Origin: Lysobacterales bacterium
GTDB lineage: Bacteria > Pseudomonadota > Gammaproteobacteria > Xanthomonadales > SZUA-36
NCBI GenBank assembly: GCA_011524975.1
Contig: WTJD01000007.1
Span: 1 to 32,303, forward strand
Direction: 5' to 3'
Length of the DNA stretch: 32,303 nucleotides
The first letter of the stretch is position 1. Each line of letters starts with the position of its first letter. Shown here piece after piece: positions 104 through 29,204 of this stretch. The notes beneath the pieces are model-generated. The model had not been told where the DNA came from, did not search any database, and worked only from the letters and a program-made list of their open reading frames with translations. Position numbers and translations under genes: made by a program.

Positions 104-625
104 ATGAAACTTGTCCACGCACTTGCTGCTATCGCGATGACCGCTACTACCCTGATGCCACAAGAAAGCGCCGCAACGCCTTTCGAAATCTGCAACACCA
201 CGGAGATCGTATTCTTCGAGGGAACGATCGTTGACGCGGCCATCGCCACTCCGGAACTGAGCACGCTTGTCACGGCCGTCGTGGCAGCAGGCTTAGCCGA
301 TGCTTTGGCGGAGGCTGAGGACATCACCGTGTATGCACCGACAGATGAAGCCTTCGGCAAGTTGTCACCGGATGTTCTGAATGCCGCTTTGGCCGACGTG
401 GACCTTCTCACGGCGATACTCCTGTACCACGTAAACCCGGGCCTGCTGGATCCCAGAAAGTGGATCAACGTGGTCAAGATTCCGACCCTGCTTGGACAGG
501 ATCTTTACATTCACCGTAAAGAAGGACAGCAGCGCGTCAACAACTCTGCGATCAATTGCATGGGCGTACGAACCGACAACGGTATGGTGTGGCTCATCGA
601 CAGCGTTTTGATGCCGCAGAGCTAA
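104..625 (+). CDS. Secreted fasciclin (FAS1)-domain protein
   Basis: ORF 77..625. The likely start is the ATG at 104, giving a signal peptide (MKLVHALAAIAMTATTLMPQESAA). FAS1 features are IVDAAIATPELSTLVTAVVAAGLADAL...ITVYAPTDEAFGKL...LLTAILLYHV and a final NG-V-IDSVLMPQ. Confidence 0.85.
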   Translation: MKLVHALAAIAMTATTLMPQESAATPFEICNTTEIVFFEGTIVDAAIATPELSTLVTAVVAAGLADALAEAEDITVYAPTDEAFGKLSPDVLNAALADVDLLTAILLYHVNPGLLDPRKWINVVKIPTLLGQDLYIHRKEGQQRVNNSAINCMGVRTDNGMVWLIDSVLMPQS

Positions 626-646: not shown

Positions 647-677
647 AAACCGCCCGGCCCGCCGGGCGGTTTTTTTT
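647..677 (+). terminator. Rho-independent terminator of the fasciclin gene
   Basis: Perfect GC-rich hairpin accgcccggc/gccgggcggt followed immediately by a run of T (ggtttttttt), about 20 nt after the stop codon. Confidence 0.9.
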
Positions 678-700
678 GTGGCGGGGCAATAGTCCGCTTT

Positions 701-794
701 CGCGGACCGATTCGGAGCCACCTGTTACCTGCCGGTGCGGACCCACCATTGCCGATAAAACCGGGTCCAGGTACACGCTGGCCGGCACACGCTT
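701..794 (-). pseudogene. Remnant of an acyl-CoA dehydrogenase 3' end, paralogous to 2441..2534
   Basis: Ungapped hand alignment of 701..794 with 2441..2534 gives about 72/94 identical bases. The minus-strand translation WEKRVPASVYLDPVLSAMVGPHRQVTGGSESV matches REKRALARVYLDQVLPETLSLHQQVINGAEAV of the intact gene. There is no equivalent stop codon and no intact upstream portion. Confidence 0.75.
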
Positions 795-944
795 TTCCCA
801 GGCGGGGTCTTGACCCTTTCGACGGTGCTGCAGTGAGCAACACGCTTGGGCGTTCAAAAGACGGCGGTGTGCCGCTGGCCCGGGTCACGGCCGAGAAGAT
901 GCTTCCGAAACTTTGCTAGGTCCAGCGCCGGTACCGCTTCCTGT

Positions 945-2414
945 TCAGGGTTCCAGCGAGGACCCGGTCAGCCGTTCCAGCATGAAGTCGACCAACCCGC
1001 GCAATTGCTCATCACTGCAAATATGGCACAGCCCACGCTCCGGCATTGAACCCTTACCCTCGAAGGTGTTGCGGTAAATTTCACTTTTCGATCGAGTCAG
1101 CACTTCCTGCCACTGCGTCGGTTCAGACAGCAAAGGGGCGCCACCCGCGCCCGTGTCATGACACCCGGCGCAGATGAATGAATAGGCAAGCTCAGCGTCG
1201 AATTCAGGGCTCAAGGGCAACCCTTCCGGTACTCGAGAGAGACGGAACAGGCCCTTATTCTGGGTCAATATCAAGATCGAGCCGTCTGAGGCGACCTTGA
1301 CGTCCCGTACCCGATCGCCCATTTCACCCAACATGGCCTGCTCCGACCGCACCACCTTGCCATCCAAATCCAGTTTACTGACATGCTGTCCCTTTAGGGC
1401 GCCAACCAGCAGGTGCCCTTCCCATTCGGGAAACATGACCCCCCGGTAAACGGTCATCGGCGACACGGCAATCGACGGCAGGTAGTACCACAAGGGCTGC
1501 TCCAGCCCAGGCGCGTGTGTGCCCTCACCGATCGGCTCAGTCGTATAGTTCAGTCCATAGGTAATGAGCGGCCAGCCATAGTTGCGTCCCGGCCAGATGA
1601 CGTTGACCTCATCGCCGCCCATCGGGCCGTGCTCGGATTCCAGCAGCAAGCCGGACGGCGGGTCGAACTGCAGCCCCTGCGCATTGCGCACGCCCAACGC
1701 ATAAATGCGGTCATCGACCGCGGGGTCGTCAACAAAAGGATTGTCGGCGGGCGTAGTGCCATCATCATTGAGCCGCAGAATCTTGCCTTCCAGGCGTGAC
1801 CCGTCCTGGGCCAGGACGTGCTGTGAACGGTCGCCAATGCTGACGTAAAGAAAACCCGCGTCATCGAACTCCAGGGCGCCGCCGAAATTGGCTGGCGACC
1901 AGCCGAACGGTTCAGCCCGCAGGATTTCGCGTACCTCGCGCAATACTTCGCCATCGAGAAGGGCAGTGGCCACGGCCGTCATGTAAAACCGGCCCGTTTC
2001 CGGATCTGCAATGACGTAACTGAAGTAAATTCTTTTGTTTCGGGCGTACTGTGGATGAACTTCCACATCCAACAGCCCGGTCTGCTCCTTGTCCGTGGCG
2101 ATCGCGGGCAGCCCGCCGATCTCCCGCCGCACCCGGTCGCGCAAGTGGAAGCGAAAAATGCCACCCCGAATTTGGGTGACAATAACCTCGTCCTCACTGA
2201 TGAACTCCATCGCCCAAGGCTCGGAGATGTCATCCAGCAAGCGTTCCAACCGGGCATCGCGAACATTCAAGGCAGCCAGGCTGGGGAGATCACCGGTGTA
2301 TGCGGGCGGCTGCGCCACGGAAGCAGGCGCGCCTGGGGCTTCCCCAGCGGCCGTCATTGAAGACCACGCTAAGGCCGTCGAAAGGGCTGCGCGGCAAATA
2401 AGATGCGGACTCAC
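945..2414 (-). CDS. PQQ-dependent sugar dehydrogenase (glucose/sorbosone dehydrogenase family) with C-terminal cytochrome c5-like domain
   Basis: 489 aa, signal peptide, beta-propeller motifs (EPWAMEFISEDEVIVTQIRGGIFRF, GLLDVEVHPQYARNKRIYFSYV, LRLNDDGTTPADNPF, ESEHGPMGGDEVNVIWPGRNYGWP). C-terminal heme motif CAGCH and cytochrome c5-like GSMPERGLCHICSDEQLRGLVDFM. GTG start overlapping the stop of the upstream gene. Confidence 0.88.
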   Translation of the reverse strand: MSPHLICRAALSTALAWSSMTAAGEAPGAPASVAQPPAYTGDLPSLAALNVRDARLERLLDDISEPWAMEFISEDEVIVTQIRGGIFRFHLRDRVRREIGGLPAIATDKEQTGLLDVEVHPQYARNKRIYFSYVIADPETGRFYMTAVATALLDGEVLREVREILRAEPFGWSPANFGGALEFDDAGFLYVSIGDRSQHVLAQDGSRLEGKILRLNDDGTTPADNPFVDDPAVDDRIYALGVRNAQGLQFDPPSGLLLESEHGPMGGDEVNVIWPGRNYGWPLITYGLNYTTEPIGEGTHAPGLEQPLWYYLPSIAVSPMTVYRGVMFPEWEGHLLVGALKGQHVSKLDLDGKVVRSEQAMLGEMGDRVRDVKVASDGSILILTQNKGLFRLSRVPEGLPLSPEFDAELAYSFICAGCHDTGAGGAPLLSEPTQWQEVLTRSKSEIYRNTFEGKGSMPERGLCHICSDEQLRGLVDFMLERLTGSSLEP

Positions 2415-4177
2415 ACCAGCAAATCCGCTCCGGTTACGGCTTCGGCTCCGTTGATCACCTGCTGGTGCAGACTCAGCGTTTCCGGCAACACCTGGTCCAG
2501 GTACACCCTGGCCAGCGCACGCTTTTCCCGGGCGAATTCATCGTCACGGTCCCTAATGACCGCGCAGATCTCCAACCAGAAACACGCCACCGAAGTCAGC
2601 GCGAATTGCCGCTGATAGTCGGTCGCGGATGCCAGTACCAGCGCGTCGGATTCAGCCGACTTTTCAACCAACCACTGGGTGGCCGCCTGCAACCGCTCGA
2701 GCGCCTGCCTGGTCGGCGACAAGACCCATTGCATGCGGTCGTCTTCTTCAAGTGAAGCGAACAGCTGCGCCCAGCGATCAAACAGCCGCCGGACGAGGCG
2801 CCCATCCGCCTGGACCAGTTTTCGGCGGACGAGATCCACCGCCTGCACCTCATTGGTGCCCTCGTAAATCTGGGTGATCCTGCAGTCCCGCACCAGCTGT
2901 TCCATGCCGTACTCGCGCACGTAGCCGTGTCCGCCGAAAACCTGCTGGGCATCAATGGCGCTGTGCAATCCAAGATCGGACAGGTAGGACTTGATAACAG
3001 GCGTCAGGATGGCGACATAGTCCTGGGCCGCCTCGACAGCCGCGGCGTCCTCGCTGCGTGCTTCCACGTCGGCCTGGAAGCCCGCAAAAGTGAACATCGC
3101 CCGGGCGCCCTCAACCTGCGCGCGGATTTTCAGGAGCTTGCGCTGAATATCGGGCTGATAAATGATCGGATCAGCCATTTTGGTGGGATCAGGCCGGTCA
3201 CCCGGCGCTTTGCTCTGGGCGCGGTCCCGCGCGTATGCCACGGCATTCTGGTAGGCGACCTCGGCCACACCGAGACCCTGTATACCCACTGCGATTCGCT
3301 CCAGATTCATCATTCGGAACATGGCCACCAGGCCCCGATGCTCCTCGCCCACCAGGTAACCGGTGGCTCCGTCAAAGTTCAGCACGCAGGTTGCGGAGGC
3401 CTTGATGCCCATCTTGTGCTCGATGGATGCCGTATTCACTGCGTTGCGCTCACCCAGCGTGCCGTCTTCGCGGACCAGGGTGCGCGGAACGAGGAACAGG
3501 CTGATTCCCTTCACCCCGGGCGGGGCGCCATCCAGGCGCGCGAGCACCATGTGAATGATATTTTCCGTCAGGTCATGATCACCGGAGGTGATGAAAATCT
3601 TGGTCCCGGTGATCTTAAAGCTGCCGTCACCATCGGGCACTGCCTTGGTGTTCAACAGCCCCAGGTCGGTGCCACAGTGGGGCTCGGTGAGGCACATGGT
3701 GCCGGACCATGTGCCTGCCACCATGTTGGGCAGGTACCGGTCTTTCAAAGCGTCTGATGCCTCCGCTGCGAGCAGATGGTACGCGCCGTGCGTCAATTCC
3801 GCATACAGCTTGAAGGCGATATTGCAGGACCCCAGCATTTCGTCGATCAGGAACTGAAGCAAACGCGGCAGACCCTGTCCACCATGCTCAGGGTCGGCAT
3901 CCAGGCCTGGCCAGCCGTTCTCGCAGAACGTCTGGTAGGCCTCCCGAAACCCGGGCGGAGTGGTCACCGCGCCATCGGCATACACCGCGCCATGCTCGTC
4001 GCCACTTCGGTTGAGCGGCAACAGCTCACGGGTACAGAACTTGCCGGCTTCTTCCAGCACGAATTCACAGGTATCCCGGTCGACATGCTCATATCCGGGC
4101 AGGGCCGACAGCCGGTCAATACCGATCCATTCTTCCAGCAGGAACATCATGTCCCTAACGGGTGCTTCGTAAATCAT
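2411..4177 (-). CDS. Acyl-CoA dehydrogenase, long form with C-terminal extension (DmdC/FadE-like)
   Basis: 588 aa. MCLTEPHCGTDLGLLNTKA, GTKIFITSGDHDLTENIIHMVLAR, MGIKASATCVLNFDGATGYLVGEEHRGLVAMFRMMN, GGHGYVREYGMEQLVRDCRITQIYEGTNEVQAVDL. The N-terminal MIYEAPVRDMMFLLEE is typical of this subfamily. Confidence 0.92.
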   Translation of the reverse strand: MIYEAPVRDMMFLLEEWIGIDRLSALPGYEHVDRDTCEFVLEEAGKFCTRELLPLNRSGDEHGAVYADGAVTTPPGFREAYQTFCENGWPGLDADPEHGGQGLPRLLQFLIDEMLGSCNIAFKLYAELTHGAYHLLAAEASDALKDRYLPNMVAGTWSGTMCLTEPHCGTDLGLLNTKAVPDGDGSFKITGTKIFITSGDHDLTENIIHMVLARLDGAPPGVKGISLFLVPRTLVREDGTLGERNAVNTASIEHKMGIKASATCVLNFDGATGYLVGEEHRGLVAMFRMMNLERIAVGIQGLGVAEVAYQNAVAYARDRAQSKAPGDRPDPTKMADPIIYQPDIQRKLLKIRAQVEGARAMFTFAGFQADVEARSEDAAAVEAAQDYVAILTPVIKSYLSDLGLHSAIDAQQVFGGHGYVREYGMEQLVRDCRITQIYEGTNEVQAVDLVRRKLVQADGRLVRRLFDRWAQLFASLEEDDRMQWVLSPTRQALERLQAATQWLVEKSAESDALVLASATDYQRQFALTSVACFWLEICAVIRDRDDEFAREKRALARVYLDQVLPETLSLHQQVINGAEAVTGADLLV

Positions 4178-4210: not shown

Positions 4211-6523
4211 CTAGTTACGCAAGGGCCGTCCAAATTCGAGCATGTGGGCAATTCGGGCGCGCGTCTGCTCCGTGGCCGCCAGCGTGAGAAAAGCCTCGCG
4301 TTCAAGGTCCAGCAAACCCTGCTCGGATATCTCGCTTCCGGCTTCGACATCGCCGCCGGTCACGATCATCGCGATCTGCCCGCCGGTGGTGACATCATGC
4401 GGCGTCAGGTGCCCGCGGTCCCGGTAATCCATCAGCCAGTCCTGCATCTCCGAGCGCACCGACCGTCCCGCGGCGGACAAAGCGACGCGCGATCCCGGTT
4501 GATAGCCCTCAACCATACCGCGCGCTACTTCAACCGCGCGATTCAGCATGCGGTCGCGGTTCATCAGGTACTCATCCGACCCGCCCCGGAACATCGCCAT
4601 CTTCTCCGCCAACAGCGGGCTCGAGGCCGTCATGCCATAGCCAACCTGCTTGAAAGCCTTCCAGGCGGCCGCGGCTGAATCTCCCGTCCGCTCATGCCAG
4701 CGATGCAGCATTTCCTTGACCCCGCCGCCGCCTGGCACCACGCCGACCAGCGATTCAACCAGCCCGGTGACGGAATTGGCGTGATAGACGACACGATCGG
4801 TATGCAGCACCACTTCCAAGCCGCCGCCCAGTGCCAGGCCGACGGGTGCGGCCACCACCGGTATCGGCGCGTTACGCATGGCGATCACCGTATCCTGGAA
4901 ATCCGCCAGGAAACGGTCGAGACCGGAAAAATCTCCGCGATCGATGAAATCCAGCACGGCGGAGAGATTGACGCCGCAGGAGAAATGAGCCGCGTCATTA
5001 TGAACCACGAGCCCCTTCATATGACCGCTCGCATGCTCCACGGCCGCGGCCAGCAGGCTCATTGACTGGCCGTCGAGCGTATTGGCCTTGGAGTGAAACT
5101 CGACCAGCCCGATGTCATCGCCCAGGTCAAAATAACTCGCGTTGGCATTTTCCCGGATGACGCCCCGGTATTGTCGCTCCTCGCTGAAGCGCCGAATGCC
5201 TGGCGCCCGGCGTATCGCGTGGTATGCGTCATCGGCATGCAGGGTCTGCAATTCATCGTCCTGCACACGGTAAAAACGGCGCTTTCGACCCGTTGCAAGG
5301 AAAGCGGGAACCGGCCGGCCCTCGCGCTCCAGTCGCTCAACGAAGGCATCGGCGCCAATGGCGTCGAGCATTTCAAACGGACCCCGCAACCAGTTGTATC
5401 CGAGCTTCATGGCGTCATCGATCGCCGCGGGCGACTCGTTCACATCAGGAACCAGCTCAGCGGCATAGCTCAGTGTCGCGGCCAGTATCTCCCAGGCATA
5501 ATCCGCCGCCCAGCCATCGGAATCGAGCAGAGCCGCCAGGTCGCCGGTCCGCTCGGCCTCGGCCGCCGCGGCATCCGCCTCCAGCCGATGAGGACGGTAG
5601 GAAAAGGTCTCAAAATCCAGCGTCTCACGGTCACCCTGAGGCGAACGATAAAACCCGCCCGCCTCGCTTTTGTTACCGATCAGCCCCGCGTCGATCATCC
5701 GCTTCATGACAGGGATCTCCCCGGCCACGTCATGAAAAGCGTCTTCCTCGGGCAGAATGGCGACCAGGCTGCGGACCACGTCCGCCATCAGGTCGATACC
5801 GATCAGGTCATACAGACCAAACACGCCCGTTTTGGGCACGCCCAATGGTCGGCCGAACACGGCGTCCGCCTGCTCCGGGCTCAGCCCCATGCGAACCGCC
5901 TGGTGCAGGGCGGTTTGAATGGCGAAGACGCCGACCCGGTTACCCAGGAATCCGGGCGTGTCCCGGCAAACCACGATCCCCTTGCCCAGGCGTTCCTCGC
6001 AAAACGCATCCAGCGAATCAATGACCTCGGGCAGGGTGTCCTCGCCACGCACCAACTCCAGCAAACGCATGAAGCGGACCGGATTGAAAAAGTGGGTAAT
6101 GGCGAATTCCTGGCGGAAAGACCTCGGCATCCCCTCAACCAGCAGTGATATCGGGATGGTCGATGTATTGGATGTCACCATGGACCCCGGCTTCCGGATG
6201 GCGTCGATTTGCCGGTACAGTGAGCGTTTGATGTCCAGCTGCTCCACCACGGCCTCGGCGATCCAATCCACCTCCGAGAGGCGATCAAGGTCATCCTCGA
6301 TGTTTCCAATGGTGATGCGCTGAATAAAATCGGGATGCAGCAGGCCGGGCTGATTTTCATCCAGCAACCGCTCCAGCGCCCGCTGCGCGATGGCATTGCG
6401 CTCCTCACCCTCGGACGCCCGGTCCAACAGCAACACCGGCACGCCCGCGTTGGCCAACTGACCCGCGATCCCAAGCCCCATGGTGCCGGCGCCAACCACC
6501 GCCGCTTTGCTGATTTCGTACAT
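4211..6523 (-). CDS. 3-hydroxyacyl-CoA dehydrogenase / enoyl-CoA hydratase fusion (FadN-like order)
   Basis: 770 aa. N-terminal NAD-binding AAVVGAGTMGLGIAGQLANAGVPVLLLD, SNTSTIPIS, THFFNPVRFMRLLELV, DTPGFLGNRVG. C-terminal crotonase-like VVAAPVGLALGGGLEVVLHTDRVV. Confidence 0.93.
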   Translation of the reverse strand: MYEISKAAVVGAGTMGLGIAGQLANAGVPVLLLDRASEGEERNAIAQRALERLLDENQPGLLHPDFIQRITIGNIEDDLDRLSEVDWIAEAVVEQLDIKRSLYRQIDAIRKPGSMVTSNTSTIPISLLVEGMPRSFRQEFAITHFFNPVRFMRLLELVRGEDTLPEVIDSLDAFCEERLGKGIVVCRDTPGFLGNRVGVFAIQTALHQAVRMGLSPEQADAVFGRPLGVPKTGVFGLYDLIGIDLMADVVRSLVAILPEEDAFHDVAGEIPVMKRMIDAGLIGNKSEAGGFYRSPQGDRETLDFETFSYRPHRLEADAAAAEAERTGDLAALLDSDGWAADYAWEILAATLSYAAELVPDVNESPAAIDDAMKLGYNWLRGPFEMLDAIGADAFVERLEREGRPVPAFLATGRKRRFYRVQDDELQTLHADDAYHAIRRAPGIRRFSEERQYRGVIRENANASYFDLGDDIGLVEFHSKANTLDGQSMSLLAAAVEHASGHMKGLVVHNDAAHFSCGVNLSAVLDFIDRGDFSGLDRFLADFQDTVIAMRNAPIPVVAAPVGLALGGGLEVVLHTDRVVYHANSVTGLVESLVGVVPGGGGVKEMLHRWHERTGDSAAAAWKAFKQVGYGMTASSPLLAEKMAMFRGGSDEYLMNRDRMLNRAVEVARGMVEGYQPGSRVALSAAGRSVRSEMQDWLMDYRDRGHLTPHDVTTGGQIAMIVTGGDVEAGSEISEQGLLDLEREAFLTLAATEQTRARIAHMLEFGRPLRN

Positions 6524-6545
6524 GAATCTACCTCACAAGCGGCCT

Positions 6546-7355
6546 TCAGCCGGCCGGGTTGTGCTTGAACACGAATGTGCCGAGCGCATGGCGGCAGGCG
6601 TCGGGTGTTTCCACGGGGACCATGTGCCCGGTTCCAGGTATGCGTGTCACTTCCGGAGCGGGCAGCGCTGCGATCAAGGCCTCTGTGGCCTTACGGGGCG
6701 CCATGCGATCCAGCGCACCCACGATCACCTGCACCGGAGAGGCAATCCCGGCAGCGGCCTGCGCCCCGCCCTGGTACGCGTCGCAGGCGTTCAGATCAGC
6801 GGCCAGCCCAGCCGGCGCGTTGTGCCGCATCACTTTCCAGCCGTTAACCAGCATGGCGTTCCCGGGCACCGGCCCCAAATGCTTCTGGCCCGCCGGGCCA
6901 AAACCCCAGCCGGTCATCAGGTTCACCGCTTTGTCCGGCGCGTGCTCTGCCGCCTCGATCAGCGCGGGGTTAACCGGCGTCGCCAGGCCGCTGGCGATCA
7001 AGCTGAGACTTCGCAGCTGCGCCTGATAGCGCGCCGCATACTCCAGGGCCACCAGGCAGCCCTGAGAATGGCCGACCAGGGATACCCGCTCGGCGCCCAG
7101 GCTATCAAGGACCACGTGCAGCCATTCCGCCATGTCTTCGATGCTCCTCAGCGGCTCGCCGCCAGAAAGGCTGTGGCCCGGAAAATCCGGCGCCACCACG
7201 GAGTAGCCGCGAAAAGCAAAGAATCTCGTATGCAGAGACCAAAACGTGTGATCCAGCCCGCTGCCATGCAGAAAAACCACCGCCGGCCGCTCACGGTCAT
7301 AGGCCCGGCCGCCCGTGCCCGCGAACACCTGCTCTCCATTGATTTCCACGATCAT
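6546..7355 (-). CDS. Alpha/beta hydrolase
   Basis: The ORF opens at 7427 but the likely start is the ATG at 7355 (MIVEINGEQVFAGTGG), next to the stop of the upstream gene. HGSGLDHTFWSLHTRFFAFRGYSVVAPDFPGHSLS, nucleophile elbow GHSQG, terminal GTGHMVPVE. Confidence 0.88.
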   Translation of the reverse strand: MIVEINGEQVFAGTGGRAYDRERPAVVFLHGSGLDHTFWSLHTRFFAFRGYSVVAPDFPGHSLSGGEPLRSIEDMAEWLHVVLDSLGAERVSLVGHSQGCLVALEYAARYQAQLRSLSLIASGLATPVNPALIEAAEHAPDKAVNLMTGWGFGPAGQKHLGPVPGNAMLVNGWKVMRHNAPAGLAADLNACDAYQGGAQAAAGIASPVQVIVGALDRMAPRKATEALIAALPAPEVTRIPGTGHMVPVETPDACRHALGTFVFKHNPAG

Positions 7356-7359
7356 GACT

Positions 7360-8658
7360 TCAGGCCTGCCGCACCCGGGCGGCGGCCTTGAACCCCAGCT
7401 CAAAGTCGCCCTGGATATCTTCAACATTCTCCAGCCCCACCGAGAGCCGAATCATGTCCTCGGTGATACCCGCGGCCTCCAGCGCCTCGGCATCAATCCG
7501 GGAATGGGTGGTGCTTGCCGGATGAATGATGAGCGTGCGTGCGTCTCCCACGTTGGCCAGGTGCGATGAGAACTGCAGGCTCTCAATAAAGGCCCGGCCG
7601 GCCTCACGGCCGCCTTTGACGCCGAAGGTAATGATGGAGCCCGCACCTTTGGGCAAGTACTTTTTCGCCTGCTGGTGGCTACCATGATCAGGCAGATCAG
7701 GGTGACTCACCCACGCCACCTGTTCATGTGCCTGCAGAAATCCCAGCAGCGCGCGGGTGTTTTCGATGTGCCGGTCCATGCGCAGTGACAGCGTCTCAAT
7801 ACCCTGCAGCAGCAGAAACGCGTTCATCGGGCTCATCGACGCGCCAATATCCCGCATGGCCTCCGCCCGGATGCGGGTGGCGTATGCGCTGGGGCCGAAC
7901 TCTTCCCAGAAATTGATACCCTGAAACGGCGCATAGGGCTCCGTAATGGTGGGAAACTTGCCGGACGCTCCCCAGTCAAAATTTCCGCCATCGACGATGG
8001 CGCCACCAATGGAATTGCCATGCCCGCCCATCCACTTGGTCAAGGAATGGATCACGATGTTGGCTCCGTGATCAAAACAGCGGCACAGATAGGGGGTGTT
8101 GAACGTGGCGTCTATCATCAGGGGCACGGCGTGCCGGCCCGCGATGTCGGCAACGGCTTCGAGGTCCATGATGTCCAGACCCGGGTTTCCGATCAGTTCG
8201 CCGAAAATGAGCCGCGTGTTGTCCGTGACGGCGGCCTCGATCGCTTCGAGGTCGGTCGGATCCACGAAGGTGGCGGTGATGCCGAAACGCGGCAGCGTGT
8301 TCTTCAGCAGGCTGACATTGCCGCCATACATCTGGGAGGAAGCGACAATATGATCGCCCTGCCCGAGGATGGCCGTGATGGCGCAAAAGACGGACGCCAT
8401 ACCGGATGACGTGCACACGGCGGCGGAGCCGCCCTCCAATGCCGCCACGCGCTGTTCAAGCACACCCACCGTCGGGTTGGTGATTCGGGAATAGGCATGA
8501 CCACCGCGTTCCAGGTTGAATATCGAAGAGGCCGTATCGCTGTCCGGAAACACATAGGAGGTGGTCTGATACACGGGCACGGCGCGAGCGCCGTATTCCG
8601 GGTCCAGCGTCTGTCCCGCGTGCAGCGAGAGCGTGTCGAATTTCAGAAAATCAGACAT
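7360..8658 (-). CDS. O-acetylhomoserine/O-succinylhomoserine sulfhydrylase (MetY-like)
   Basis: 432 aa PLP enzyme. FDTLSLHAGQTLDPEYGARAVPVYQTTSYVFPDSDTA, YSRITNPTVGVLEQRVAALEGG, PLP-lysine region IVIHSLTKWMGGHGNSIGGAIVDGG, ARTLIIHPASTTHSR. Confidence 0.93.
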   Translation of the reverse strand: MSDFLKFDTLSLHAGQTLDPEYGARAVPVYQTTSYVFPDSDTASSIFNLERGGHAYSRITNPTVGVLEQRVAALEGGSAAVCTSSGMASVFCAITAILGQGDHIVASSQMYGGNVSLLKNTLPRFGITATFVDPTDLEAIEAAVTDNTRLIFGELIGNPGLDIMDLEAVADIAGRHAVPLMIDATFNTPYLCRCFDHGANIVIHSLTKWMGGHGNSIGGAIVDGGNFDWGASGKFPTITEPYAPFQGINFWEEFGPSAYATRIRAEAMRDIGASMSPMNAFLLLQGIETLSLRMDRHIENTRALLGFLQAHEQVAWVSHPDLPDHGSHQQAKKYLPKGAGSIITFGVKGGREAGRAFIESLQFSSHLANVGDARTLIIHPASTTHSRIDAEALEAAGITEDMIRLSVGLENVEDIQGDFELGFKAAARVRQA

Positions 8659-8668
8659 GTGACTCGGT

Positions 8669-9826
8669 TCAGGCGGCCGCCAGCGCGGTATCCAGCGCGG
8701 CTATCAGGTCCTCGGCGTCCTCCAGCCCCACCGACAGGCGCACCAGCCCGTCGATGATGCCGACGCGGGCGCGCTCTTCCGGTTCAACATCGGCGTGGGT
8801 CATGGTCACAGGGTGGGTGATCAATGATTCAACCGAACCGAGATTTTCCGCCAGTGTCCAGAGCTCTACATTGTCCATCAGGCGCTTGCCCGCGGCCACG
8901 CCGCCTTTGACCTCAAACCACATCATGGCACCGAAACCCGTGGCCTGGCGACAGGCCAGTTCATACTGGGAAAACGAAGGCAGCCCCGGGTAAGCCACCT
9001 GGGCCACCTTGGGATGCGCCTCCAGGTATTCCGCGATGGCCTGGGCGTTGGCCGACTGGCGTTCCATGCGAATTGACAAGGTCTTGCAGCCCTGCAGCGT
9101 GATCCAGGCCACCTGCGGCGACATGATGATGCCGGCGGTTTTCAGCATGAAACGCAAGGCCTCGGCATGCTCTTCGGTGGCCGCGGTGACCGAACCACCC
9201 ACGGTGGCATTGTGGCCGTCCATGTACTTGGTCGTGCTGTGCAACGAGAGATCCGCCCCGAGTTCCAGCGGCCTCTGGTAGTACGGCGTCAGGAACGTGT
9301 TGTCCACGCAATGCACGGCGTTCGCGGCGCGGGCAATGTCCGACAGAGCGGCAATATCAGACAGCTTCATGGTCGGGTTGGCAGGCGTTTCACTGAACAA
9401 CATGCGTGTGTTCTCGCGCATCGCCGCTTTGACGGCATCGGGATTGGAGGTGTCTGCAAAACTGATGTCCACGCCGAATCGGCTCAGCACCTGTGTGCAG
9501 AACCGGTAGGTGCCTCCGTAAGCCACGTCCGAGATCACCAGGTGGTCGCCGGCGTTCAGGAAACTCATCAGCACGGCCTGCACGGCGGCCATGCCGGTCG
9601 AGTAGCAGGTGGTATCCAACCCTCCCTCGAGATCCGTAATCTTCCTCTCCAGCGCCGCCACGGTGGGATTTCCCGCACGTGAGTAGGAGAAGCCCTTGCG
9701 CATGTACTCATCCACGGAGGGCTGTACGTAGGTGGTGGACTGGTAAATGGGCGTCAGGATGGCCCCGGTGACCGGATCCGGTGTGACGCCTGCGTGAACT
9801 TGCCTGGTATTGAATCCCATCTTCAT
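8669..9826 (-). CDS. Cys/Met metabolism PLP enzyme (cystathionine gamma-synthase or gamma-lyase)
   Basis: 385 aa. NTRQVHAGVTPDPVTGAILTPIYQSTTYVQPS, YSRAGNPTVAALERKITDLEGG, LHSTTKYMDGHNATVGGSV, ESLITHPVTMTHADVEPEERARVGI. Synthase versus lyase cannot be settled by eye. Confidence 0.88.
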   Translation of the reverse strand: MKMGFNTRQVHAGVTPDPVTGAILTPIYQSTTYVQPSVDEYMRKGFSYSRAGNPTVAALERKITDLEGGLDTTCYSTGMAAVQAVLMSFLNAGDHLVISDVAYGGTYRFCTQVLSRFGVDISFADTSNPDAVKAAMRENTRMLFSETPANPTMKLSDIAALSDIARAANAVHCVDNTFLTPYYQRPLELGADLSLHSTTKYMDGHNATVGGSVTAATEEHAEALRFMLKTAGIIMSPQVAWITLQGCKTLSIRMERQSANAQAIAEYLEAHPKVAQVAYPGLPSFSQYELACRQATGFGAMMWFEVKGGVAAGKRLMDNVELWTLAENLGSVESLITHPVTMTHADVEPEERARVGIIDGLVRLSVGLEDAEDLIAALDTALAAA

Positions 9827-10041
9827 GCCTCGATCGCTGGGGGAAACAGGAACAACGCGCCCTGTTCGAACTGCTGGTCATGATACACCGAGACCGGCCT
9901 GTCCACCGCCCGCAGGCGACATAAAAGCCACCTGTTGACCGCAATGGGGCGATGACCGGTGCGAACGGCGCGGTGGCCGGCCCGCATCACAGGGGTCAAG
10001 GGGGTATCATGCTTCCCGCCCATCAATGATCAGGTGCCCGC

Positions 10042-13000
10042 ATGAAAGAAAGAAAAACCCGCAAGCTTACCGCTTCTCCGCATCGCTTCGTCTCCTGCGC
10101 CATGTCTCTGCTGGCCCTGGTGTGCATCTCATCGGCCGCCGACCAGGCGGCCGGAGAGGCCGCAGGTGGTTTACCGCTGAGAGGCATCGGACCCGCCTTC
10201 ATGGGTGGCCGCATCGCGGACATCGACGTTCACCCGCATGAGAAAAACACGTGGTATGTGGCCGTGGGTTCCGGCGGGGTCTGGAAAACCACCAATGCGG
10301 GAACCACATGGCAACCGGTGTTCGACGCTGAGGGTTCATATTCGATCGGGGATGTCACCATCGACCCGCTGAATCCGGACGTGGTTTGGGTGGGCACCGG
10401 TGAGAATGTCAGCGGCCGACACGTTGGCTGGGGCGACGGCGTTTACAAAAGCGTGAACGGCGGCCAAACCTGGACCAACATGGGCCTTCAGGCATCTGAG
10501 CACATCGGCAACATTCTCGTCGACCCGCGGGACAGTGACCGTGTCTTTGTCGCTGCTGAGGGCCCGCTGTGGTCGGCCGGCGGAGACCGCGGTTTGTACC
10601 GCACGACAGACGGCGGCCAGACCTGGGAGCCCGTGCTCCAGATCGATGAGGACACCGGGATCACGGACGTCGAATTCCACCCGGGGAATCCGGACGTGAT
10701 TTACGCGGCCGCCTATCAGCGCCGCCGGCACGTTTGGGGGCTGATGGCCGGCGGGCCGGGAGGCGGCATCTATAAATCCACCAACGGCGGTGACAGCTGG
10801 GAGAAGCTGAGTCGTGGCCTGCCCGCGGGGGACGTCGGCAAGATCGGCCTGGCGGTCACGGCGGCGAATCCGCGACTCGTTTACGCCACGATCGAGGCGG
10901 ATGACGAGAACAAGGGCTTCTACCGCTCAGAAGACCAGGGTGAAAGCTGGAAAAAGACAAACGCCTACATTTCCAATGGCACAGGCCCGCATTACTACCA
11001 GGAAATTGCCGCTTCTCCGCTGAATCCTGACCTCGTGATCCAGATGGACGTGTTCTTTCACGTGACGCTAGATGGTGGCAAGAACTTCAATGTCCTGGGC
11101 ACGGGACGCGAGAAACACAGTGACAATCACGCGCTGTGGATCGATCCCCGGAATGATCGTCACCTGATCGCGGGCAGTGACGCCGGACTGTATGAATCGT
11201 TCGACCAGGGGGCATCCTGGCGCCACTTCCCCAATCTGCCGGTTTCACAGTTTTACAAGGTCGCGGTGGATAACGCGGAGCCGTTTTACAACGTTCTCGG
11301 CGGCACACAGGATCTGGGCACCCTGTTTGGCCCGTCACGGACCATGACCGTTGAAGGCGTCAGGAACCAGGACTGGTACGTGCCCCTGGGCGCAGACGGT
11401 TACGGCGTGGCCTTCGATCCCGAGGACGGGTTGATCAGCTACATGGAATATCAACAGGGTTACCTGTTTCGTCATCGTCGAGACACCAACGAACTGGTGC
11501 ATATCCAGCCGCAACCAGCGCCGGGCGAGCCGCCGGAGCGCTGGAACTGGGACACGCCCATCCTGATCAGCCCGCATGACGCCGGCAGGATTTACACCGC
11601 TTCACAGCGGGTATGGCGCAGCGACGACCGGGGCAACGCCTGGACGGCCATCAGCGGCGACCTGACCACGGACCAGAACCGCTACGAACTGGAGTTCGCC
11701 GGGCGCGTCTGGAGCGTGGACGACCTGCATGACAACGGCGCCATGTCCAAGTACGCGACGCTGACCGCCATCACCGAATCCCCGCTGAGCGAAGGTGTGT
11801 TGTACGTGGCCTCGGATGACGGCCTGATCCACGCCACTACCGACGGAGGCGAAAACTGGAGCCAGGCCCGGCCCCTGCCCGGCTTACCCGAGCGCTCCTT
11901 CATCAACGACCTGGAAGCTTCGCTGTTCAATGACGAAACCGTCTTCGCGGTCGCCGACGCGCACAAAGTGGGTGATTTCGCACCCTACGTATTCGTGAGC
12001 AGCAATAGCGGACGTAACTGGCGCTCCATCGCCGGCGACCTGCCGGATGGAACCATCGCCTGGGCCATTCAGCAGGATCACGAAAATGAGGACCTGCTGT
12101 TCCTGGGCACCGAATTCGGGCTTTATTTCACCCTTAATGGCGGTGAAAACTGGCACAGGCTCTCCGGCGCGCCGACCATCGCGTTTCGCGACGTCAAAAT
12201 ACAGCGGCGCGACAACGATGTGATCGGCGCCACTTTTGGGCGCGGTATTTATATCCTCGACGATTATTCCGCCTTGCGCGTCATGGCGCGGGCGGAATTC
12301 GGCGAGAACACGACCCTGTTCCCCATTCGGGACGCCTGGTGGTACGTTCCCTCCGTTCCCATGCAAGCCGCCGGGATGCCTACCCTAGGCAGCGACAGCT
12401 TCAGGGCCCCCAATCCGGATTTCGGCGCGCTCATCACTTACTACCTCGATCAGCCCTATCGCAGCCTGAAGGAAGAGAGGCTCGAGGCCGAACAAAGCGC
12501 ACGAGCCGACCGGCTGGATATCCCCTTCCCTGGCTGGGACCGCCTGCGGGCTGAATCCAGGGAGCCCGACCCACGCCTCATGATGCTGATCCGCGATGAA
12601 ACCGGCGCTCCGGTTCGATGGCTCAAGGCCAACAACGAAAAAGGAACGCACCGATTATCCTGGGACCTGCGCTATCCGGCGCCCAACCCGATCAACCTGA
12701 ACCCGCCAGCGTTCACGCCCCCCTGGGCGGGCACACCTCAAGGCCCACTGGTGGCCCCCGGCGTCTACTCGGCGCAACTCATCGCGATCACCCGCGAAGA
12801 GGCCACAGCCCTGGGTGAACCGCAGGACTTCAAGGTGAAGCCAGTCCGCGAGGCGTCTCCCGGCAGCGACTACCAGGCGATTGCCGACTTCCAGCTTCAG
12901 GTCTCGGAACTGATGCGTGACATCATGCGAACCGGCTCGGAGTTGAGTCAGGCACAGGAACGGCTGAAAAAAATGAAAGCGGCCGCCCTGGCCGCCCCGC

Positions 13001-13314
13001 GCGCCGAAACCACCCTGTTTCAGCGGCTGGACGCGCTGGAGGTTGAACTGTTGAAGCTGCAGGCGCAACTCTCAGGTGACCCCGTCAGGCGAGGACTCAA
13101 CGAGTCAACGGCGCCGTCGATTACCGGCAGAGCCTACAACGCCGCGAATGCCTGGTATAACACGCAAGCCGCCACCCAAACCCAGCGCTCTGATTTCGAG
13201 CGGGCCCGGTCAGACTACGCCGGTCTGTCGGCGAACCTGGATAAGCTGTTGGAGACGGAATGGACGAGGCTGAAAGGTGACCTGGAACGTGCAGGCGCCC
13301 CAGGCTGGAGATGA
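10042..13314 (+). CDS. Exported BNR/Asp-box repeat protein (sortilin/VPS10-like beta-propeller, often annotated glycosyl hydrolase)
   Basis: 1090 aa with a hydrophobic N-terminal segment (MSLLALVCISSAADQAAG). About ten Asp-box-like motifs, e.g. GGVWKTTNAGTTW, DGVYKSVNGGQTW, RGLYRTTDGGQTW, GGIYKSTNGGDSW, KGFYRSEDQGESW, QRVWRSDDRGNAW, FGLYFTLNGGENW. FGRGIYILDDYSALR junction and a coiled, Gln/Leu-rich C-terminus. Confidence 0.9.
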   Translation: MKERKTRKLTASPHRFVSCAMSLLALVCISSAADQAAGEAAGGLPLRGIGPAFMGGRIADIDVHPHEKNTWYVAVGSGGVWKTTNAGTTWQPVFDAEGSYSIGDVTIDPLNPDVVWVGTGENVSGRHVGWGDGVYKSVNGGQTWTNMGLQASEHIGNILVDPRDSDRVFVAAEGPLWSAGGDRGLYRTTDGGQTWEPVLQIDEDTGITDVEFHPGNPDVIYAAAYQRRRHVWGLMAGGPGGGIYKSTNGGDSWEKLSRGLPAGDVGKIGLAVTAANPRLVYATIEADDENKGFYRSEDQGESWKKTNAYISNGTGPHYYQEIAASPLNPDLVIQMDVFFHVTLDGGKNFNVLGTGREKHSDNHALWIDPRNDRHLIAGSDAGLYESFDQGASWRHFPNLPVSQFYKVAVDNAEPFYNVLGGTQDLGTLFGPSRTMTVEGVRNQDWYVPLGADGYGVAFDPEDGLISYMEYQQGYLFRHRRDTNELVHIQPQPAPGEPPERWNWDTPILISPHDAGRIYTASQRVWRSDDRGNAWTAISGDLTTDQNRYELEFAGRVWSVDDLHDNGAMSKYATLTAITESPLSEGVLYVASDDGLIHATTDGGENWSQARPLPGLPERSFINDLEASLFNDETVFAVADAHKVGDFAPYVFVSSNSGRNWRSIAGDLPDGTIAWAIQQDHENEDLLFLGTEFGLYFTLNGGENWHRLSGAPTIAFRDVKIQRRDNDVIGATFGRGIYILDDYSALRVMARAEFGENTTLFPIRDAWWYVPSVPMQAAGMPTLGSDSFRAPNPDFGALITYYLDQPYRSLKEERLEAEQSARADRLDIPFPGWDRLRAESREPDPRLMMLIRDETGAPVRWLKANNEKGTHRLSWDLRYPAPNPINLNPPAFTPPWAGTPQGPLVAPGVYSAQLIAITREEATALGEPQDFKVKPVREASPGSDYQAIADFQLQVSELMRDIMRTGSELSQAQERLKKMKAAALAAPRAETTLFQRLDALEVELLKLQAQLSGDPVRRGLNESTAPSITGRAYNAANAWYNTQAATQTQRSDFERARSDYAGLSANLDKLLETEWTRLKGDLERAGAPGWR

Positions 13315-13323
13315 TATCCGGCG

Positions 13324-14391
13324 CTAAAGCAGGCCGAGTGGATTGTTCGGGTCAAGGCCGTCCATGAACGGCTGCTTGCGGTCCAGGTTGGTCAGGCGGT
13401 AAACCAGACCCAGCCAGTTATTGACGATGGCCTTCCCCGTATCCCGCCAGGTGTTGTCGACCAGCGAGAGCAATGCTTCCTCCGGAAAATCCGCCACGTG
13501 AGCCGCCGGATTCCTGCTCCCACGGACCGAACGCAGGAATTCCAGGGCAAGAATTTTCGCGTTGTGCGAAAAATAATGCTGGGGAAAGGGCGGCGGCTCA
13601 ACCAGCGCGCCATCCAGATACCGGATGACTTCCCGCTTGTATTCTTTCAACAGGCTGAAGGCGTCGTATTCGGGATGCCCCTGGAAATAGACGATCCTGA
13701 ACAGATCGGGGCTGACCGCCAGGTGTACGCCGGCCTGTTCACTGTCGGCCAGCACGACCAGGCCCGCATCCTCCAGGTCATCTCTGGCAACGTCGTTCCA
13801 GCGTGAGTGCGGCGCGTCAAACCGCGTGTTGATATCACGGACCAGCGGATGATTGGGCCACGTGACACGGTGGCTGTACACCCCCCAACGCTTGTCCTCC
13901 AGCGGCTGCCGCTCGATGCCGTGGTGATGCTTGACCAGCGCGTGCGTCGCCAGGCATGAGCAGAGTATGGAAGTCACGTTGTTTTCGGCCCATTCAACGA
14001 CCTCGATCAACGGTTCCCAAAAAGGCTCCTGGTCCAGCGACGGGTTCACCACGTTTGCGCCGGTAATGATCAGCGCGTCCAGGCCCTGATCGCGGAGCAT
14101 TTCGAAATCCGCATAGTGTCTATCGATATGCGCCCGGGCCTGCTCACCGCGATCCAGTTCGGGCAGCGAGAAAGGGTACACGTAGAATTGGGCGATCTTG
14201 TTGCAGTTTCCGATCAGATTGATGAACTGCATCTCCGTCGCGGTCAGCGCGGCGTCCGGCATCATGTTGAGCAGACCGATGTGCAGCTCCCGGATGTCCT
14301 GCTGCAGGGCCGCGTCCTGCCCCATGATCTCCAGCCCGAAGTGTTCCAGGCGGCGGAAGGTCGGTAAGGCGTTGTGGGCGACCAGTGGCAT
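13324..14391 (-). CDS. metA: Homoserine O-acyltransferase, MetA family (probable homoserine O-succinyltransferase)
   Basis: 355 aa. LHIGLLNMMPDAALTATEMQFINLIGN, DALIITGANVVNPSLDQEPFWEPLIEVVEWAENNVTSILCSCLATHALVKHHHG, KRWGVYSHRV, APHSRWNDV, YFQGHPEYDAFSLLKEYKREV. Confidence 0.88.
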   Translation of the reverse strand: MPLVAHNALPTFRRLEHFGLEIMGQDAALQQDIRELHIGLLNMMPDAALTATEMQFINLIGNCNKIAQFYVYPFSLPELDRGEQARAHIDRHYADFEMLRDQGLDALIITGANVVNPSLDQEPFWEPLIEVVEWAENNVTSILCSCLATHALVKHHHGIERQPLEDKRWGVYSHRVTWPNHPLVRDINTRFDAPHSRWNDVARDDLEDAGLVVLADSEQAGVHLAVSPDLFRIVYFQGHPEYDAFSLLKEYKREVIRYLDGALVEPPPFPQHYFSHNAKILALEFLRSVRGSRNPAAHVADFPEEALLSLVDNTWRDTGKAIVNNWLGLVYRLTNLDRKQPFMDGLDPNNPLGLL

Positions 14392-17516: not shown

Positions 17517-19193
17517 TCAGGCAACGCCCTCAACGGAACCATCTTCATTGAGTTTGACCTTGAGGGCCTGCGGATTCCGTGGCAGACCAGGCATGCGCAG
17601 GATGGCTCCGGTGAGCACCACCAAAAAACCCGCGCCTGCGCTCACCTGCACGTTGCGAACGGTAATCTCGAAATCCCTCGGACGCCCCAGCAGAGCCGGA
17701 TCGTCGGACAGCGAAGCCGGGGTCTTGGCAATGCAAATGGGCAATCCGTCCAGGCCTGCGCTGCGGATGGCGGCGAGATCCTTTTCCGCTTCCTTGGCAA
17801 ACACCACGCCGGAGGCGCCGTACTGATTTTTTGCCACCTTGCGCACCTTGTCATGGAAGCTGTCATCCGCCTCGTACAGGAACTTCAGCGGCTCGTTGTC
17901 TTCCACCGACGCCATGACCTGGCGCGCGAGGTCGGCCGAACCGGGTCCACCCTCGGCGAAATGGCGAGACTCGGCAAACCGCATGCCGTGCCGGTCCACG
18001 CGCTCGCGAACAAAAGCGATTTCCTCGTCGGTGTCCGCCGCGAAACGGTTAAGCGCCACTACCGGCTTTTTGCCGAATGCGGCAGCACTCTCGATGTGTT
18101 TGTCCAGGTTTTCCAGCCCGCGCCGCACCGCTTCGGTGTCCGGGGTTTCGAGCTCGTTCTTGTCCTTGCCGCCGTGCAGTTTGAGCGCCCGAAGCGTGGT
18201 GACCAACACCAGCGCGTCCGGATCGAGCCCGGCTGACCGGCACTTGATATCCATGAATTTCTCCGCGCCCAGGTCGAACCCGAAGCCGGCCTCCGTGATG
18301 GTCCAGTCCGCATGGTGCATGGCCATGCGGGTCGCCACCACGGTATTGCAACCGTGCGCGATGTTGGCGAATGGCCCGCCGTGAACGAAGACCGGCACGC
18401 CCTCCAGCGTCTGCACGAGGTTGGGATGCATGGCGTCTTTCAGCAAGGCCAACATGGCGCCGGTGACTTTCAGGGCGCCGGCACGGACCGGCTTGCCGTC
18501 GTAAGTGAAGCCAAGCAGGATGTTGTCGAGGCGGCGTTCGAGGTCCTTCATATCCTTTGCCAGGCAAAGTATGGCCATGATCTCAGAAGCCGCGGTGATA
18601 TCGAATCCGCCCTCTCTGGGCACGCCCTGCACCTTACCGCCCAGTCCCAGCACGATATTGCGCAACGCGCGGTCGTTCATATCCATGACCCGTCGCCACA
18701 ACACCTGCCGTGGATCGAGATTCAGTTCGTTGCCCTGGAAAATGACATTGTCCATGACCGCCGCGATCAGGTTATTGACCGCGGTGATGGCATGAAAATC
18801 TCCGGTAAAGTGGAGATTGATGCGATCAGCCGGGATCATCTGGGCATAGCCACCTCCGGTCGCGCCGCCCTTGACGCCAAAACAGGGCCCGAGTGATGGC
18901 TCTCGCAAGGCGACCGCCACCGATTCCCCGATGTGTTTGAAACCCTGCGAAAGGCCGATAGAGGTGGTGGTCTTGCCTTCGCCGGCCGCCGTCGGCGTGG
19001 TCGCCGACACCAGCACGAGCCGGGGTTTTCCAGGGCGCTCTCTCGGTTCAGCCAGGGCGTCGAGGCTGACCTTGGTGATCTCCGTGCCGAAAGGAATGAG
19101 GTGCCGGTCCTTGACGCCCAGTTCATGAGCCACATCAACAATGGGCGCCGGGTTGGCCTGTCTCGCAATTTCGTGATCTGAAAGCATGTTCAA
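17517..19193 (-). CDS. fhs: Formate-tetrahydrofolate ligase
   Basis: 558 aa. ATTPTAAGEGKTTTSIGLSQGF, REPSLGPCFGVKGGATGGGYAQMIPADRINLHFTGDFHAITAVNNLIAA, FVHGGPFANIAHGCNTVVAT, EAGFGFDLGAEKFMDIKC. Confidence 0.96.
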   Translation of the reverse strand: MNMLSDHEIARQANPAPIVDVAHELGVKDRHLIPFGTEITKVSLDALAEPRERPGKPRLVLVSATTPTAAGEGKTTTSIGLSQGFKHIGESVAVALREPSLGPCFGVKGGATGGGYAQMIPADRINLHFTGDFHAITAVNNLIAAVMDNVIFQGNELNLDPRQVLWRRVMDMNDRALRNIVLGLGGKVQGVPREGGFDITAASEIMAILCLAKDMKDLERRLDNILLGFTYDGKPVRAGALKVTGAMLALLKDAMHPNLVQTLEGVPVFVHGGPFANIAHGCNTVVATRMAMHHADWTITEAGFGFDLGAEKFMDIKCRSAGLDPDALVLVTTLRALKLHGGKDKNELETPDTEAVRRGLENLDKHIESAAAFGKKPVVALNRFAADTDEEIAFVRERVDRHGMRFAESRHFAEGGPGSADLARQVMASVEDNEPLKFLYEADDSFHDKVRKVAKNQYGASGVVFAKEAEKDLAAIRSAGLDGLPICIAKTPASLSDDPALLGRPRDFEITVRNVQVSAGAGFLVVLTGAILRMPGLPRNPQALKVKLNEDGSVEGVA

Positions 19194-19265
19194 TGTCCTC
19201 TGGTACGGGCGGCCGCGTGGGGCGCCGGTTTCATGAGTGAGGAAAGACGCCTGGCTGCCTGATAA

Positions 19266-20450
19266 TCAAGCCAGGAACGCGTATGGCAGGAAGTCGATTT
19301 CTTCACCCTTTTCGATATCCTGGCCGGGCGCCTGCACAACCAGGCCGTCACCCCACACAGCAGACATCAATACGCCGCTGCTTTGTCTCGGATGGCACTC
19401 TACACCATCGGGCGTGGATTTCGCACGCAAATAGGTCTGTCGAGGACTGCCCGCCAGGGCGAATTTCGCCACCTTTTTTACGGGAATCACCCGTCCATCG
19501 TCTCTCCCCTGGCAGGCGAACAGGTAGGGACGCGCCATGATCAGCGCGGTCACGAGGACAGAAGACGGGTTGCCGGGAAGGCCGATAAACGGCGTTTCCG
19601 ACACGCGCCCGAAGGCAAAAGGCTTACCCGGCTTGATCGCCACCTTCCACAAATCGATGGCGCCCAGGTCGGCCACCACGTTTTTAATGTGGTCCTCCTC
19701 TCCCACTGAAACCCCGCCCGAGGAGACGATGACATCGGCAGCTGATGCCGCTGACTGCAGCAATTCGCCGATGGCCGCCGGTTCATCCGGCGCGATACCC
19801 ATGTCCTGAACCTCAAAGCCCCAGTCCCCCAACAGCCCGGCCAGCATGTAGCGGTTGGAGTTGTATATCTGGCCGGCCGCGGCGATCTCTCCCGGTTCGA
19901 TCAGTTCGCTGCCGTTGGAAATCACGGCGACGCGCAAGCGGCGATAGGCGGGTACTTCCGCCAGCCCCAGGGAGGCGAGCAGGCCGAGCCCCTGAGCGTC
20001 GAACCGCCGGCCGGCGCGCATGACACGATCTCCGGCGGTGATGTCCTGGCCACGGGGGCGAATATTGGCTCCGCGATCGGGGCAACGGCCAATCACGACA
20101 TCCCGCGCGCTCGCCGTGCAATGCTCCTGCATCACAACGGTGTCCGCGCCCGGTGGAATATGCGCGCCGGTAAATATACGGGCGGCTGTGCCGGCCGGAA
20201 GCGGCTCAGGGTCGATGCCCGCAGGAATGCGAAGGCTCAGGGGCAGCGCGGCCGCCTCGCCCGGCCAGTCATCGTGCTGAAACGCATAGCCATCCATGGC
20301 GCTGTTGTCAGCGGGCGGAACATCGATCGCCGCAACGATATCCTCCGCGAGAATGCGCCCCAGGGCGCCGGTCAGGGGCACGGCCTCGGCCTGAACCAAT
20401 GGCCTGGCCTGCTCCAGCAGGGCCGAGACAGCCTGGTCAACCCCGAGCAT
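19266..20450 (-). CDS. moeA: Molybdopterin molybdenumtransferase MoeA
   Basis: The likely start is the ATG at 20450 (MLGVDQAVSALLEQARPL), overlapping the moaB stop. DVPPADNSAMDGYAF, RIFTGAHIPPGADTVVMQE, VAVISNGSELIEPGE, VIVSSGGVSVGEEDHIK, KPGKPFAFG, FIGLPGNPSSVLVT. Confidence 0.94.
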   Translation of the reverse strand: MLGVDQAVSALLEQARPLVQAEAVPLTGALGRILAEDIVAAIDVPPADNSAMDGYAFQHDDWPGEAAALPLSLRIPAGIDPEPLPAGTAARIFTGAHIPPGADTVVMQEHCTASARDVVIGRCPDRGANIRPRGQDITAGDRVMRAGRRFDAQGLGLLASLGLAEVPAYRRLRVAVISNGSELIEPGEIAAAGQIYNSNRYMLAGLLGDWGFEVQDMGIAPDEPAAIGELLQSAASAADVIVSSGGVSVGEEDHIKNVVADLGAIDLWKVAIKPGKPFAFGRVSETPFIGLPGNPSSVLVTALIMARPYLFACQGRDDGRVIPVKKVAKFALAGSPRQTYLRAKSTPDGVECHPRQSSGVLMSAVWGDGLVVQAPGQDIEKGEEIDFLPYAFLA

Positions 20451-20971
20451 TATTCCGCGCCGGCGCCGGTTTGCCCCACAAAGTTGCAGGGACGATGACG
20501 CGAATCCAGCTGCTCCGCGAGGATGCCGGACCAACCGGTCTTGCAGGCATTGGGCGAACCGGGCAGGCAGAAAATCAGGGTGCGGTTCGCGAAGCCGGCG
20601 CAACACCGCGACTGCACGGTGGAAGACCCCACTTCGCTGTAAGACAACTGCCTGAACAGCTCACCAAAGCCTTCGATCACGCGGTCAAACAAGGGCAGCA
20701 GTGCTTCAGGCGTTGAATCCCGGTCGGTGAGGCCCGTGCCGCCCGTGGTGATGACCGCGTGGATATCCGGGTCTACAATCCAGTCGGAAACCGTGGCGCG
20801 CATGCGGTAAATGTCATCCTTGACGATGGCGCGCGCATGAATCTGGTGCCCCGCTTCCCGGGCCAGGGAAGCCAGGGTGTCTCCCGAGCGGTCATTGTCG
20901 GCAGTGCGCGTGTCGGACACGGTCAGCACGGCGATATTCAGGGGGATGAAGTCGGTTGGGTGTTGATGCAT
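20450..20971 (-). CDS. moaB: Molybdenum cofactor biosynthesis protein MoaB
   Basis: 173 aa. LNIAVLTVSDTRTADNDRSGDTLASLAREAGH, AVITTGGTGLTDRDSTPEALLPLFD, FCLPGSPNACKTGWSGILAEQLD. Confidence 0.93.
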   Translation of the reverse strand: MHQHPTDFIPLNIAVLTVSDTRTADNDRSGDTLASLAREAGHQIHARAIVKDDIYRMRATVSDWIVDPDIHAVITTGGTGLTDRDSTPEALLPLFDRVIEGFGELFRQLSYSEVGSSTVQSRCCAGFANRTLIFCLPGSPNACKTGWSGILAEQLDSRHRPCNFVGQTGAGAE

Positions 20972-21040
20972 GTGATTCTCTCGAGCGTTTTCAGCAGGCG
21001 AATCCGCAGGTATCCCGGCGAAGCGCCATGACCGACCATT

Positions 21041-21676
21041 TCAACCGTCTTCACCCACGAGGTCAACCAGGCCGGCGGCCTCGGCCAGGTCCTGAGGCGT
21101 ATTGACATTCACAAAAGGTGAAACGCGAGATGCGGGCCAATCCACGATCGCGCACTCCATCTGATCGAGCACCCGCATCAAACCGGCGCCATCCGCGTCC
21201 AGAACAGCCGGTTTGACGCGCGGCAGCGCGTCGAGGTGCCACAGCGAAAATACCGGCTGCACCACGCCCTCGTAGCGCGCAACGGCCACGGACTTTTGCT
21301 CATCGAGCGCCGCGCGCATCAATTGCGATGAAAGATCCGCTGGCAGGAGCGGCGCGTCGCATGGAACGAGCAGCAGCCAGGGTTCACCACCCCGGCATTC
21401 GAGTCGCAGCAATCCGGAGACCAGCCCGGTCAGGGGGCCGCGACGGCGCTCGACCACATCGACCACCTGTTCCAGCCCGAACGCAGCAAGATCGGGGTTG
21501 CTGCGGTGCACACTGAGCAGAATCGGGCTGGCTTGCCCCCGCAATCTCTCCAGCACATGTTGCAGCATGGGCCGCCCGTTCAGTTCCGCCAGCGCCTTGT
21601 CCGGAACGCCCAACCTGCTGGATTGCCCCCCGGCCAACACCAGGCCCGTGGGCCGGCACCCCTCGCTCCGGGTCAT
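21041..21676 (-). CDS. mobA: Molybdenum cofactor guanylyltransferase MobA
   Basis: 211 aa. GLVLAGGQSSRLGVPDKALAELNGRPMLQHVLERL, RRGPLTGLVSGLL, LLVPCDAPLLPADL, FVNVNTPQDL. Confidence 0.92.
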   Translation of the reverse strand: MTRSEGCRPTGLVLAGGQSSRLGVPDKALAELNGRPMLQHVLERLRGQASPILLSVHRSNPDLAAFGLEQVVDVVERRRGPLTGLVSGLLRLECRGGEPWLLLVPCDAPLLPADLSSQLMRAALDEQKSVAVARYEGVVQPVFSLWHLDALPRVKPAVLDADGAGLMRVLDQMECAIVDWPASRVSPFVNVNTPQDLAEAAGLVDLVGEDG

Positions 21677-21888
21677 TCAGAGGCCAGTCGGCTGGCTGCC
21701 GCGACCACGACGGCATCCAGTTCCGCGCCCCCTTCCCGCACATAATCGAGCAGGGATTGCCGCATGGAGGGCGCCCAGAATCGTGTCAGGTGATCCAGGA
21801 CCCGGTCCTCCGCGTCGGCATGAAAACTGAAATTGACCGCAATCTGGTTGGCCATCTGAATCAGATGCTCAAGCTCGGTATCAGACAT
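21673..21888 (-). CDS. fdsD: Formate dehydrogenase delta subunit (FdsD)
   Basis: The likely start is the ATG at 21888, about 72 aa: MSDTELEHLIQMANQIAVNFSFHADAEDRVLDHLTRFWAPSMRQSLLDYV. Overlaps fdhD and mobA, typical of operon packing. Confidence 0.9.
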   Translation of the reverse strand: MSDTELEHLIQMANQIAVNFSFHADAEDRVLDHLTRFWAPSMRQSLLDYVREGGAELDAVVVAAASRLASE

Positions 21889-22693: not shown

Positions 22694-22879
22694 CGGTCAA
22701 TTCTATGGGAAATTGGCCGGCCGGCGCGTAAAAAAGCGTGCCCAAGGCCGCCTCTGGCTGCGGATTCTGGCGCATGAGCGGTCCCGATGGCCCCTTTCAC
22801 CAGGACAATGACCTTTGGGATGTGGGCGATGCCATCAAAATACGCTATCCTCTGCGGCCCCGTTTCTGAGCCGCTTGCA

Positions 22880-24211: not shown

Positions 24212-24259
24212 ACGCCAACGCCAACGCCAAGGTGGACGTTTCACCGTCCCCGGTTTCGC

Positions 24260-27112: not shown

Positions 27113-27125
27113 GTCTTGACTCCGC

Positions 27126-28670: not shown

Positions 28671-28671
28671 C

Positions 28672-29127: not shown

Positions 29128-29188
29128 TGTCTCACCCGCTGAAGCACCCTTTAATGGAGCCCCTATAGTATTCCTGCGGCGGGGTACA

Positions 29189-29204
29189 CGCAAAGCCCAT
29201 GCCC
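29189..29204 (-). promoter_or_regulatory. Candidate sigma-54 (-24/-12) promoter element upstream of fdsG
   Basis: Minus-strand GGGCATGGGCTTTGCG matches TGGCACG-N4-TTGC at 9 of 11 defined positions by hand, including the GG and GC dinucleotides with correct spacing, about 60 nt upstream of the fdsG ATG. Confidence 0.35.

Follow-up and report, generated by a model that had tools for sequence, protein, structure and literature searches.

The 32,303-nucleotide window, i.e. the whole stretch of DNA that was analysed, carries a decayed duplicate of the final ~111 bp of an acyl-CoA dehydrogenase (ACAD) coding sequence at positions 693..804 on the minus strand. We regard this fragment as a non-functional scar, probably left by a local rearrangement of two steps, a tandem duplication and then a deletion, in a single lineage. 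Its parent is intact and close by, the gene at 2411..4177 on the minus strand, which encodes a protein of 588 aa with matches to PF00441, PF12806, PF02770 and PF02771. By Pfam content and length this enzyme is an ordinary member of the PF12806-containing long acyl-CoA dehydrogenases, and the solved structures nearest to it are 8png, 8pns and 6ijc; compared with an intact enzyme of this type the remnant is non-functional and corresponds to no more than the final ~37 codons.

Local alignment pairs 693-804 with 2424-2534, with one gapped base, at a score of 52, whereas 300 dinucleotide shuffles gave a mean of 12.7 (sd 1.7) and a maximum of 19. The core of the match, 727-804 against 2457-2534, is identical at 64 of 78 positions (82%, E about 2e-15). 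The segment is a pseudogene fragment of the adjacent ACAD gene, and its similarity to this parent is far above chance. The initial annotation had read the segment as a copy of the ACAD 3′ end in decay, and as a visible scar of assembly, and in this it was right; its own proviso, that the similarity might be no better than that of shuffled sequence, is ruled out by the shuffle maximum. The register that it gave needs amending, as it had matched 701..794 without gaps to 2441..2534 at ~72/94 identical bases; the similarity is real, but that pairing is off by 10 and yields 33/94. Correctly placed, 701-794 aligns without gaps to 2431-2524 with 68/94 identical bases, and the runner-up ungapped match of this segment, in the whole window and on either strand, reaches 45/94. 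A search of the genome for further copies of the ACAD tail found none besides this copy and the parent gene, and a DNA search with 605-960 in 39 family genomes returned only the parent locus and noise.

The conserved reading frame ascribed to the copy is a half-truth: an in-frame protein match to ACAD is present (20/46, tblastn E 3e-8), but the copy shows no coding constraint. In the 75 bases that were compared by codon, 15 substitutions alter 12 of 25 codons, against 9.4 ± 1.6 expected from a neutral simulation, which is a small sample. Over a longer stretch the 27 differences between copy and gene, likewise few, fall 8, 10 and 9 on the three codon positions, with no excess at the third. When the changes were polarised with three outgroup genes, 14 proved to be derived on the copy and 5 on the gene, with 6 ambiguous. 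The tail copy, short as it is, has drifted as non-coding DNA, with no coding constraint since it was copied.

Between parent and copy lies sdh (945..2414, minus strand), an ORF for a glucose/sorbosone dehydrogenase family protein (PF07995, E 1e-105) with a C-terminal cytochrome c domain (PF13442, E 4e-9). Its GTG start overlaps the ACAD stop as GTGA at 2411-2414, which suggests that translation of the two genes may be coupled; the same four-base overlap is absent in G001, the other of the two genomes that make up our sample of the genus, the first being the window genome (G000). The copy and the ACAD 3′ end have the same orientation with sdh intervening, as the initial annotation had stated. 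Sdh does not sit exactly between them, however, because the dead 3′ end of a second gene, in 805-944, lies there as well.

This second remnant was sought by aligning 805-944 to the 3′ ends of DmdA-like aminomethyltransferase genes (dmdA), because dmdA is expected beside sdh. In G010, which belongs to a related genus of the same family, and in the MAG contig L040, ACAD is directly convergent with a DmdA-like gene and no sdh stands between them. In G001 the order is ACAD > sdh > 22 bp < dmdA; the ACAD tail scar is absent between sdh and dmdA in this genome, and the 22 bp leave no room for it. The comparison of synteny that had been proposed at the outset delivers sdh-less relatives, but also a genome with sdh and without the tail copy. 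The DmdA-like gene that the window has lost is ancestral to the ACAD neighbourhood. In the relatives it belongs to the GcvT family, and its best matches are the DMSP demethylase model NF009133 and PDB 3tfh; at 341.9 bits the G001 protein falls below the NF009133 cut-off of 410 and is not classed as a DMSP demethylase. The G001 sdh (L037:10397-11924) is broken near codon 264, its parts reading in two frames, either through an error of assembly or because the gene is dying.

Compared with the DmdA-like gene of these relatives, the window retains a 3′ end only, at about 867-919 on the plus strand, with a TAG stop at 917-919 and similarity that may extend left to about 840. With strict gap costs, 867-908 aligns with the dmdA 3′ ends of G001 (score 18) and G010 (score 17) at P about 0.001 each, and the dmdA of G019 aligns through to the stop. 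The score summed over four dmdA genes was reached by 0/2000 shuffles, 0/2000 control segments attained a score of 17, and among 3218 blocks on both strands of the window this block ranked first, with 35 against 29 for the runner-up. Lenient gap costs weaken the signal (P 0.01-0.4), and a tblastn search of the window with the DmdA protein of G001 gave nothing at 805-945. Position agrees with the alignments, in that 25 bp separate the sdh stop from the stop of the remnant, compared with the sdh-dmdA gap of 22 bp in G001. Taken together, the scores at strict gap costs, the scan of the whole window and the position make this stretch of ~42-53 bp very probably a decayed dmdA 3′ end. It lies between sdh and the ACAD tail copy. 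No intact ortholog of the neighbourhood dmdA was found in the window genome; another of its contigs (L172:1537-2811) retains a further DmdA-like gene, which shares 42% identity with the G001 protein.

The age of the copy can be placed relative to the linkage of ACAD and sdh. Over the bases of the tail, identity is 80% between the copy and its own parent but 59% between this parent and its G001 ortholog, and 99% of bootstraps place the copy closest to its own parent. Four-fold sites of ACAD are 43% identical between the window genome and G001, i.e. near saturation, so an unconstrained copy that is still 80% identical to its parent could predate the split of these genomes only if gene conversion had intervened. 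On these comparisons, duplication of the ACAD tail postdates the G000/G001 split. Since sdh was already in place at that split, the tail duplication came later than the insertion of sdh. The genomes present three states, viz. no sdh; sdh with intact dmdA; and sdh with broken dmdA and a tail copy, and they put sdh first and the scar later. The scar is not a trace of how the sdh gene arrived.

The other side of the scar is occupied by a fasciclin-domain gene (104..625, plus strand; PF02469, E 1e-25) and its intrinsic terminator (647..677, plus strand), a G+C-rich stem of ~11 bp followed by a U tract. Folding gives this hairpin -23.6 kcal/mol and a z of -3.5; a simple consensus terminator scan did not list it. 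The end of the tail copy adjoins this terminator. The best relative of the fasciclin gene is 42% identical within the family and 51% within the order, and a search for the gene in G001 gave no match.

Our preferred account starts from the order ACAD > sdh > < dmdA, as in G001. A segment running from within the ACAD 3′ end, or from further upstream in ACAD, to within the dmdA 3′ end would have been duplicated in tandem, creating a junction of dmdA 3′ end and ACAD tail near 805. The second sdh and what remained of dmdA, up to the present fasciclin gene with its terminator, would then have been lost in a later deletion, with which the fasciclin gene may have arrived, and the leftover dmdA and ACAD 3′ ends would have drifted without selection. 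The observed junction, sdh > < dmdA 3′ end, ACAD tail >, is head-to-tail and in the same orientation, as a tandem duplication gives. The initial annotation had suggested that a second ACAD once lay downstream and was deleted; with a dead dmdA 3′ end separating sdh from the remnant, this can hold only within such a later tandem duplication. Tandem duplication followed by deletion is known to leave duplication-and-loss remnants in bacterial chromosomes. The present scar shares with them a partial gene copy in the same orientation beside a truncated neighbour, drifting without constraint; unlike them, it has no detectable second copy, here of sdh. Nothing in 626-700, beyond the tail copy, resembles the sdh 5′ end above the level of shuffles, and the model has the second sdh deleted whole, so that the lack of a remnant there speaks neither for nor against it. 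A literature search on this kind of scar found nothing directly on point.

Several points count against duplication and deletion. The duplication of sdh itself is not visible, and the extent of the duplicated segment is reconstructed rather than seen. The dmdA remnant is short and loses strength with lenient gaps, the scar is near a MAG contig end, and the genus is represented by two genomes. The copy also ends close to the stop codon of its parent and lies beside the fasciclin terminator, as one would expect of a tail whose original end was at this place. This last point favours an unlikely alternative, in which the ACAD tail, terminator and fasciclin gene were imported together from a sister strain with ACAD convergent to fasciclin, and illegitimate recombination attached them to the broken 3′ end of dmdA; tail and terminator would then keep a natural convergent layout, and the fasciclin gene is indeed lineage-specific. 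Against such an import, ACAD stands beside this fasciclin gene in none of the genomes compared, and the differences, in a small sample, lack the third-position excess that a functional donor tail would give and are mostly derived on the copy.

We think it rather more doubtful still that the tail was copied ectopically, by template switching in the repair of a break that removed dmdA, with no larger tandem duplication at all. That only about 110 bp of ACAD are present, with nothing of a second sdh found, would suit such an event, but a tandem duplication explains the same-orientation, head-to-tail junction without an extra mechanism. A misjoin at the contig end, with DNA from a related strain, is very improbable: the window is the whole contig of a draft genome (MAG) and the tail copy lies less than 1 kb from its end, as an assembly artefact would have it, but the sdh-dmdA spacing agrees with that of G001 (25 vs 22 bp), and the copy shows the drift of non-coding sequence. 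The least credible reading is the other one offered initially, an insertion of sdh that duplicated the ACAD tail. Copy and parent tail do flank sdh in the same orientation, but not directly, since the dmdA 3′ end separates sdh from the copy. In G001 sdh occupies the same place and the tail copy is absent, the copy arose long after the two genomes split, and the reading would require both that G001 had lost the scar and that the copy had undergone gene conversion in the window genome.

The scar is ordinary, and none of these mechanisms implies a function for it; it is a small example of a partial gene copy dating a rearrangement, and general understanding is unchanged by it. Next to ACAD, 4211-14391 holds a FadB-like gene and, with names taken from ORF reading, an alpha/beta hydrolase, two PLP-dependent sulfhydrylase-type enzymes and a homoserine acyltransferase-like protein; this neighbourhood is largely conserved in G010 and G019. 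Together with the ancestral DmdA-like gene, these genes resemble a putative methylated-sulfur or methionine-linked neighbourhood. A tentative further reading, which we put forward as a possibility of the weaker sort, is that a DmdA-like methyl-transferring gene was lost from this neighbourhood of ACAD, hydratase and sulfhydrylase genes, through a tandem duplication and deletion that also brought in the fasciclin gene, and that the scar is the record of this loss. If so, the scar would mark a change, with a relative date, in how one lineage metabolises methylated compounds. Elsewhere in the window, 17517-29364 brings formyl-THF ligase-like, molybdenum cofactor, FdhD-like and NAD-dependent formate dehydrogenase genes, as named from their ORFs, into one stretch, which by ORF reading alone would be a candidate one-carbon oxidation cluster.
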